Part shown: positions 55,701 to 57,348 of the stretch, piece after piece | Layout: every line of letters starts with the position of its first letter | Numbering within the stretch: the first letter of the stretch is position 1 | Source: Sphingobium nicotianae | GTDB taxonomy: Bacteria; Pseudomonadota; Alphaproteobacteria; Sphingomonadales; Sphingomonadaceae | Length of the DNA: 64,000 bases | NCBI RefSeq assembly: GCF_018603885.1 | Contig: NZ_JAHGAW010000008.1 | Span: 124,001-188,000, forward strand | Reading direction: 5' to 3' | Made by a program: the position numbers and the translations under genes | The notes under the pieces: generated by a model | What the model saw: the letters and a program-made list of their open reading frames with translations, nothing else | The model's database searches: none | Told to the model about the DNA's origin: nothing

Positions 55701-56780
<1,080 letters not shown>

Positions 56781-56799
56781 TCAGCTTTCGGTGGAAAGT

Positions 56800-56890
56800 G
56801 CCCCGCGCTCTTCGCGGGGCTTGGGTCCGGATCGTCGGGCCCTCAGGCCGCGCGCGCATCCGAAACCGCCCCGCGAGCGCGGGTCGGTTT
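56800..56890 (-). promoter_or_regulatory. Probable transcription attenuator of asd
   Basis: On the minus strand, four segments can pair alternatively: 1 = 56890-56878, 2 = 56875-56863 (1:2 stem of 13 bp with one mismatch, AAACCG...CGGTTT), 3 = 56820-56813 (GCCCCGCG), 4 = 56807-56800 (CGCGGGGC). Segment 3 pairs perfectly with 4 (terminator stem, loop of 5) or with the CGCGGGGC inside segment 2 (antiterminator). The T-run after 4 is weak (ACTTTCC). The leader peptide overlaps segment 1. Confidence 0.6.
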
Positions 56891-56923
56891 AATGCTAATC
56901 GGCTTGGCGATCATCATCGACAT
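56843..56923 (-). CDS. Putative asd leader peptide
   Basis: A 26-codon ORF, starting ATG 56923 and beginning MSMMIAKPISIKPT, stop TGA at 56845-56843. Its first fourteen residues hold 3 Met, 3 Ile, 2 Lys and 1 Thr, the end-products of the aspartate family that asd feeds. The codons AAA CCG ACC CGC are the 5' arm of a hairpin (see attenuator). This is what a ribosome-mediated attenuator peptide looks like. Confidence 0.6.
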   Translation of the reverse strand: MSMMIAKPISIKPTRARGAVSDARAA

Positions 56924-57009
56924 GGGCCGCGCCTCTAAAGGCGAGAGGTTAAGATGTAAACCGGGGGCACGTGATTTTTGTGGGACAGGTACGTTCGCCC
57001 TTGGTCGTC

Positions 57010-57029
57010 ATGCCAGCGAAAGCTGGCAT
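57010..57029. repeat. ATGCCAGC-GAAA-GCTGGCAT hairpin, left copy
   Basis: 8-bp perfect stem with a GAAA loop. An identical copy lies at 57413-57432 and a related hairpin (CCCCAGC-GTTC-GCTGGGG) at 57358-57375. The three surround the GIY-YIG nuclease gene. Confidence 0.8.
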
Positions 57030-57057
57030 CTCATGAGGCAGTGACTAAGATTCCGGC

Positions 57058-57348
57058 ATGGAACGCGGCGGCTGGACCTACATCATGACGAACAAGCCCC
57101 GTGGCGTGCTCTATGTCGGTGTCGCGGCGGATCTGCCGGCGCGGGTTTTCCAGCACCGCAACGGAACCGGATCGTCCTTCTGCCGAAAATACAATCTTAC
57201 CCGGCTCGTCTTCGCCGAACGCCATGACGACATCGTAACGGCAATTGCGCGGGAGAAAGCCCTGAAGGCCTGGCAGCGCGCGTGGAAGATCGAGCTGGTC
57301 GAGAGCATCAATCCAGGTTGGGATAATCTCTTCGACGTCATCCTCTGA
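57058..57348 (+). CDS. GIY-YIG nuclease superfamily protein
   Basis: A 96-residue stand-alone GIY-YIG domain of the UPF0213/YhbQ type. Core: TYIMTNKPRGVLYVGVAADLPARVFQHRNGT (the GIY and YIG strands appear as TYI and YVG), the Arg in LPARVFQH, KYNLTRLVFAERHDD and AIAREKALKAWQRAWKIEL with the catalytic Glu. Located between hairpin repeats on both sides, 29 bp after the left copy and 65 bp before the right. No other domain, so its in-cell role is unknown; it may process branched or hairpin DNA. Confidence 0.88.
   Translation: MERGGWTYIMTNKPRGVLYVGVAADLPARVFQHRNGTGSSFCRKYNLTRLVFAERHDDIVTAIAREKALKAWQRAWKIELVESINPGWDNLFDVIL

Follow-up and report, generated by a model that had tools for sequence, protein, structure and literature searches.

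A conserved Thr/Ile/Lys-rich leader upstream of a second asd gene in sphingomonads is a candidate amino-acid-sensing attenuator of translation

The asd gene stands at the branch leading to Lys, Met, Thr and Ile, and a short open reading frame (ORF) lying shortly before one such gene in Sphingobium nicotianae raises the question of whether these amino acids control its expression and, if so, at which step. In the stretch of 64,000 nucleotides analyzed here (the window), an original prediction had placed a 26-codon ORF before asd on the minus strand, together with alternative hairpins. The ORF is present among the ORF calls of the window (56923-56843), with 98 nt between its 3' end and the ATG of the downstream gene at 56744 (Table 1). 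An N-terminal extension of asd is ruled out, given that the leader stop codon precedes the asd start codon in the 56 leaders analyzed, and conservation of the leader rules out a chance ORF. As judged from comparative sequence data, the leader is genuine and conserved and appears to behave like an amino-acid-sensing attenuator, its best-supported output in sphingomonads being translation of the downstream gene.

Table 1. Positions of the asd2 leader elements in the window
Feature	Position	Strand	Pairing or basis
Predicted leader promoter, -35-like TTTACA	56955..56960	minus	word scan over leaders
-10-like region TTTAGAGG, 8 nt before leader ATG	56932..56939	minus	TA at similar distance, by eye
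Leader ORF, 26 codons, MSMMIAKPISIKPTRARGAVSDARAA + TGA	56843..56923	minus	ORF call; 17-leader alignment
Segment 1 (codons 12-16)	56878..56890	minus	pairs with segment 2
Segment 2	56863..56875	minus	pairs with segment 1 or, via CGCGGGGC, with segment 3; 2:3 partner swap
Segment 3, GCCCCGCG	56813..56820	minus	pairs with segment 2 or 4
Segment 4, CGCGGGGC	56800..56807	minus	pairs with segment 3; GCGCGGGG (56808-56801) pairs with segment 5
Inner stem of 4:5 hairpin, CTTTC (56798-56794) / GAAAG (56789-56785)	56785..56798	minus	leader fold and both tail folds
Segment 5, CCCCGCGC (56779-56772) and anti-Shine-Dalgarno CCTTCC (56772-56767)	56767..56779	minus	inverted repeat, partner swap, folds
Segment 6, Shine-Dalgarno region AGGAAGGAAG and GATC adjoining the asd start codon	56745..56760	minus	folds
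asd2, second aspartate-semialdehyde dehydrogenase gene of the genome, asd_B-type	55701..56744	minus	TIGR01296, 422.7 bits (cut-off 324.2)

The original prediction correctly recognized the gene behind the leader as asd, although it missed that this is the second copy in the genome, denoted asd2 hereinafter. The other asd gene (G000:C24:277027-278019) is 50% identical to asd2, and a search with the leader model gave no match there. Copies resembling asd2 are uncommon, being matched in 12 of the 94 genomes searched within the genus (E value of 1e-110 or better), 6 of 99 genomes of a family sample (1e-100 or better) and 20 of 376 genomes of the order (1e-120 or better). At the level of the class, 263 of 288 genomes contained an asd_B match (1e-60 or better); besides the window's own genome, 40 of the 263 had two or more, and these were re-examined. 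Of seven leader-bearing genomes of named records, six also encode another full-length asd with about 50% identity; in the seventh, only pieces of such a gene were found.

Absence of the ORF from relatives would have spoken against the leader, and conservation was observed instead. A leader of the same plan could be read before the asd2-type gene in all 28 sphingomonad genomes found, at the search thresholds used, to carry that asd, as well as in all eight named alphaproteobacterial loci, namely those of Alpha proteobacterium L41A, Novosphingobium, Hyphomonadaceae UBA1933, a Caulobacterales metagenome-assembled genome (MAG), two Caulobacter, Sphingosinicella and Reyranella, the last in a divergent form. 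In total, 56 leaders were analyzed, partly obtained by reading upstream of further asd copies; near copies (L014 of L006, L204 of L203, L215 of L211) and repeated loci (L004, the locus of L213; L219, L221 and L222, those of L124, L122 and L123) were not counted among them. A covariance model built from 17 leaders and searched in 385 alphaproteobacterial genomes matched 12 of these: the window's own, nine with the match directly before asd, and two false ones, G358 (on both strands) and G335, which upon inspection contained no leaders and were set aside. In six of the nine, Asd is only 41-45% identical to that of the window. Because this search scored nine candidates per genome with stricter filters, little weight can be placed on absence elsewhere; in G315, G247, G279, G382 and G185, five genomes whose asd shows 70-74% identity, neither scoring nor inspection by eye revealed such a leader. 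In a broader survey of the class, comprising 129 asd upstream regions hand-picked from the listed matches (35 further and 94 main copies; best ORF of 12-60 codons), an ORF dense in Thr and Lys (at least 8 such residues per 12) was found in 19 regions, compared with 0 of 129 antisense; 8 of these ORFs precede copies labelled as second and 11 precede main copies. Among 70 mostly actinobacterial asd upstream regions, from which two loci with short flanks were excluded, none reaches seven Thr+Lys.

In sphingomonads, the leader peptide follows a common plan, with an N-terminal part rich in T, I and K, and sometimes M, followed by K-[P/T]-T-R-x-R-G-A or a variant thereof. In the alignment of 17 leaders, gaps within the ORF are all multiples of three, whereas those past the stop codon are not. 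We compared residue usage in the control region, defined as codon 2 to the codon preceding the anchoring Lys, that Lys being excluded, across 38 lineage representatives (382 codons). Thr accounts for 28.8%, Ile for 16.0%, Lys for 11.0% and Met for 4.7% of these codons, against 5.3%, 5.6%, 3.1% and 2.8%, respectively, in window ORFs of at least 300 codons; the 29 representatives that had not been found through Thr/Lys scoring yielded nearly the same picture (28.5%, 19.2%, 11.0% and 4.5%). Thus, of the Met/Ile/Lys/Thr enrichment originally proposed, Thr, Ile and Lys stand out, whereas Met is at most slightly enriched, is hardly conspicuous outside the genus of the window and is not supported as a main control residue. 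Codon choice is unusual as well: ATT provides 52 of the 76 Ile codons and AAA 30 of the 49 Lys codons in 26 sphingomonad leaders, compared with 10.9% and 10.7% in the window ORFs, although the leaders are related, so that these counts are not independent. Alternatively, such AT-rich codons could serve to keep this stretch unstructured. The leader therefore has the first hallmark of a ribosome-mediated transcription attenuator, a short ORF with codons for pathway end products.

The second hallmark, a set of mutually exclusive 1:2, 2:3 and 3:4 pairings, is also found in the window, in the form of competing inverted repeats, and so bears out the logic attributed to this locus. The arms of 1:2 (56890-56878 and 56875-56863) are 13 nt long and 92% complementary; because they lie only 2 nt apart, no more than 11 pairs with one mismatch can form, which trims the 13-bp hairpin of the original prediction, and the arm said to consist of early codons is built from codons 12-16. 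The claim that the second arm can pair instead with a segment of a later stem held up, 2:3 (56876-56868 with 56820-56812) being perfect over 9 nt and 3:4 (56820-56813 with 56807-56800) over 8 nt. A further pairing, 4:5, which was absent from that prediction, is likewise perfect over 8 nt. Conserved pairings extend beyond position 56800, the 3' boundary of that prediction, and reach the Shine-Dalgarno (SD) sequence of asd, so that translational output becomes more likely. The region 56745-56945 as a whole folds better than 200 of 200 dinucleotide shuffles (z -3.8). Both partners of 4:5 have changed together in other lineages, namely ATGCGGGG with CCCCGCAT in L010, GAGACGGGG with CCCCGTCTC in L223 and, with one bulged base, GAGCAGGCGGGG with CCCCCGCACTGCTC in L212, and segment 5 or its adjoining bases pair with the SD region there too (CGTCTCT/AGAGACG in L223; GCATCT/AGATGC in L010).

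To compare these pairings across lineages, the hybridization energy of each segment with its own partner was set against that with partners from other lineages (5000 permutations; 54 leaders in 38 clusters, one member per cluster, with hairpins picked by requiring one C-rich and one G-rich arm). Two leaders, L177 and L186, were dropped because a T-run terminator adjoins the SD and leaves little tail. Own partners paired more strongly for 4:5 (-20.35 versus -16.95 kcal/mol; z -6.5), for 2:3 (-16.04 versus -14.65 kcal/mol; z -5.2) and for 5:SD (-12.55 versus -10.69 kcal/mol; z -4.8), in each case with 0 of 5000 permutations as extreme. The controls with reversed partners were not flat for segment 4 with reversed 5 (z -2.9) and segment 3 with reversed 2 (z -2.7), indicating that base composition explains part of the 4:5 and 2:3 signals; the reversed control for 5:SD gave -0.8, and five other control pairs fell between -2.1 and 1.1. 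Among the 15 sphingomonad representatives alone, the 4:5 signal is clear (5/5000) and that of 5:SD modest (124/5000); 2:3 gave no signal in this subset (1665/5000).

We then asked how these pairings bear on the asd start site, using the same 38 representatives for the opening-cost, SD-accessibility and residue-count analyses. The mean cost of opening the start site is 12.90 kcal/mol without segment 4 and 6.85 kcal/mol with it, the former being higher in 37 of 38; in silico, the start site is thus hidden in the OFF state, as in translational attenuation of the erm type. Replacing segment 4 with that of another lineage gave 8.94 kcal/mol (SD 0.32, 40 swaps). In the window, the cost is 14.8 without segment 4 and 8.3 with it. 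The predicted folds of the window tail are consistent with these values: without segment 4, GGAAGG (56759-56754) pairs with CCTTCC, and GATC (56748-56745) pairs with GATC (56782-56779), whereas with segment 4 the 4:5 hairpin forms and the GATC stem is lost. A five-pair stem (CTTCC/GGAAG) on the SD is kept in both predicted states of the window, only the flanking stems changing, and a cruder measure than opening cost, the mean unpaired probability of six SD bases, does not change there (0.32 versus 0.33); this probability rises in 28 of the 38 representatives.

The whole path was followed by masking segments, as a ribosome might. The mean cost is 9.76 kcal/mol for the free leader; masking of segment 1 brings it to 7.41, and masking of segments 1 and 2 together to 10.35 (11.2, 6.5 and 10.6 kcal/mol in the window). 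Masking segment 1 thereby opens the main start site in silico, as expected for an erm-type device, in 33 of 38 representatives when compared with masking of both segments (exceptions L009, L094, L127, L179 and L191), and its cost is below that of the free leader in 31 of 38 (exceptions L009, L126, L127, L179, L211, L213 and L220). When the masked edge was moved along the window leader four positions at a time, the cost fell to a minimum of 7.1 at nucleotide 48, which, given the footprint of a ribosome, fits one held at about codons 11-14. A second low, of 6.5 to 6.6, has the masked edge in segment 3 (nucleotides 104-108) and would correspond to a ribosome beyond the stop codon, a situation that is not expected to arise.

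Taken together, the comparative and modelling data point, with somewhat better than even confidence, to a ribosome-mediated attenuator that senses a shortage of charged tRNAs for Thr, Ile and Lys and mainly controls translation of the second Asd. With ample charged tRNA, the ribosome would pass quickly, 1:2 would re-form behind it and 3:4 would form, leaving segment 5 free to build a stem around the SD, and asd2 would be poorly translated. Under starvation, the ribosome would stall at Ile, Thr or Lys codons just before or within segment 1 and cover that segment; 2 would then pair with 3, the freed segment 4 would pair with 5, and the asd2 start site would become easier to open.

The principal alternative, which we regard as possible though distinctly less probable, is classical transcription attenuation, with 3:4 acting as a weak or Rho-assisted terminator and 4:5 and 5:SD being secondary. 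The 1:2, 2:3, 3:4 logic of the window is what such a device would display, and distant members of this leader family, located at other asd copies (L166, L177, L183 and L186), carry clear T-run terminators, so that a transcriptional output does exist in the family. The terminator-like stem of the original prediction, however, was not recovered: no intrinsic-terminator-like site was called in 56600-57100, the 3:4 stem of the window is followed by ACTTTCC, and the nine bases past this stem contain one to five T (median 3) in 26 sphingomonad leaders, so that neither the window nor these leaders have 3:4 as an intrinsic terminator with a U-tract. Furthermore, 4:5 is matched within lineages, yet it cannot influence a decision that precedes transcription of segment 5. 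Transcription termination hence probably plays a minor role in sphingomonads. In L177 and L186, the T-run stem lies directly before the asd SD, so that hardly any space is left in which a 4:5 and 5:SD relay could form, and these two apparently represent a purely transcriptional form of the same leader family.

The leader promoter bears on another reading. When five words picked after inspection (TTTAC, TTGAC, TTGCC, TTTGC and TTTAT) are allowed, 52 of 56 leaders have a -35-like word at a distance of 30-42 nt upstream of their start codon; with only TTTAC and TTGAC allowed, the number is 44 of 56. A word lies at exactly -37 in 30 of 56, and a TA near -14 is seen by eye in most leaders. A scan for sigma-70 consensus promoters called none at this position. 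The combination of the -35-like word and the TA would place the transcript start at, or a few bases from, the leader ATG, suggesting a leaderless or nearly leaderless transcript. S. meliloti trpL is likewise described as leaderless (PMC10117765), a likeness that would fit a small functional leader peptide or a trans-acting RNA similar to peTrpL/rnTrpL of Sinorhizobium, with cis control being minor. Partial conservation of the KPTRxRGAV stretch would also agree with a functional peptide, but this stretch encodes segments 1 and 2, whereas the N-terminal part drifts between T, I, K and other residues, and the cis pairings are lineage-matched, making this reading improbable. Still more improbable is that the element is a metabolite riboswitch or T-box and the ORF overlaps it by chance: the site, a 5' UTR before an amino-acid gene, would suit one, but the reading frame is conserved, as are the control residues and the use of rare codons, Thr/Lys-dense ORFs recur upstream of asd and not antisense, and a search of the whole window with Rfam covariance models found no family (T-box, SAM, lysine or other riboswitch) at gathering score.

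Amino-acid-sensing attenuation on translation, the reading we favor, has parallels in several known systems. The leader peptide thrL of the E. coli thr operon is rich in Thr and Ile, is accompanied by alternative hairpins and serves the aspartate-family pathway, all of which are features of the asd2 leader too. The target is thrABC for thrL and asd in the window; in the asd2 leader, the control codons precede segment 1, which is itself encoded within the ORF, and the stop codon follows segment 2, and the window leader lacks a U-tract terminator and has the additional 4:5 and 5:SD pairings. In erm-type translational attenuation, stalling of a ribosome on a leader ORF alters the structure in which the SD of the main gene is sequestered, as is predicted for asd2; however, the signal is an antibiotic for erm and would be tRNA charging for asd2, which moreover would employ a six-segment relay with the SD stem of the window partly kept in the prediction.

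Among described leaders, the nearest is SEP5 of Sinorhizobium meliloti, a small ORF (sORF) in a 5' UTR that contains six Thr and three Lys codons in a cluster and was suggested to be a possible leader peptide of a downstream gene named aspartate dehydrogenase by its authors (PMC10117765). Its cluster lies toward the end of the reading frame, close to the 3' end, and SEP5 is described as conserved only in Sinorhizobium; by this description, it is closer to the leaders of main-copy asd genes than to that of the window. Because of the SEP5 suggestion, the idea of a Thr/Lys leader for the alphaproteobacterial aspartate pathway is not wholly new; what is new here is the conservation of the leader as a family, its place before a second asd and the predicted relay to the SD. 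The LEU element of actinobacterial leuA resembles the asd2 leader in combining a leader peptide of control codons with pairing that involves the SD of an amino-acid gene, and differs in that the proposed pairing partner of the SD is the run of control codons itself, with formation of a pseudoknot, and in belonging to another gene and phylum (PMC1262725). Ribosome-mediated attenuators of alphaproteobacteria also include uORFC-8-2, which precedes cysS in Rhodobacterales (PMC8632094), and the leader of the Caulobacter ilv genes (PMC4117421); both concern other genes, use Cys or Ile/Val codons and act through transcription terminators. In the literature consulted on asd, Thr-codon leader peptides and attenuation, including PMC1273637, no described case with the plan of the asd2 leader was found.

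In a phylogeny of 61 Asd proteins (L095 excluded), the main copies form one clade and the leader-bearing proteins two groups, one beside actinobacterial Asd and the other apart. An approximately unbiased (AU) test, performed on a second tree of 50 rows without L126 and ten main rows, rejected holding the leader-bearing proteins together at the borderline (p-AU 0.049), and, given also that the group had been named after the first tree, the existence of two separate groups is only suggestive. All leaders used to train the covariance model precede an Asd with at least 71% identity to that of the window, and the model nevertheless found leaders before Asd of 41-45% identity, in a separate clade; this suggests either that the leader persisted through a replacement of the enzyme gene or that the leader itself spread. 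In the first tree, the second Asd found in sphingomonads and Caulobacter clusters with the actinobacterial proteins and not with the main alphaproteobacterial Asd; it was possibly acquired horizontally. A broader scenario, offered tentatively and with less than even confidence, is an old alphaproteobacterial Thr/Lys/Ile attenuator, built as a six-segment start-site relay, whose output shifted between termination and translation among lineages, which kept its place despite exchange of the enzyme, and which would render a second Asd inducible by starvation beside a housekeeping one. In alphaproteobacteria, leader control of a conserved second asd would add a new control point to the aspartate pathway, and a relay from stalling to start site, together with its terminator-type relatives, would offer a natural series on how attenuator output changes between transcription and translation.

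Leaders of a second kind were observed at main-copy asd genes (L132, L133, L145, L160, L228, L231, L240, L257, L261, L262 and L279). In these, the sORF carries its Thr/Lys cluster at the 3' end, and a GC-rich stem with a T-run follows in 8 of 11 as judged by eye; they are probably classical transcription attenuators resembling the description of SEP5, and their existence speaks in some measure for a transcriptional output at asd2 as well.

A Thr-rich ORF, MPRPIAITTTTITTRTTPGGLGTRATI, was also noted in the genome of the window (L284; G000:C20:172918-173035, minus strand) upstream of thrS (L287), a threonyl-tRNA synthetase gene with Pfam domains TGS, tRNA_SAD and tRNA-synt_2b. The asd leader model matches it at 25.5 bits (E 0.0019), and it is a possible thrS attenuator; two other weak matches of the model in this genome, L285 and L286, were read and rejected. 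No thrS leader was found at 29 other loci searched, 24 of them from members of the genus without an asd2-type gene. Finally, an ORF of 96 codons on the plus strand of the window (57058-57348), divergent from the asd leader, encodes a GIY-YIG catalytic domain (Pfam PF01541, 43.5 bits).
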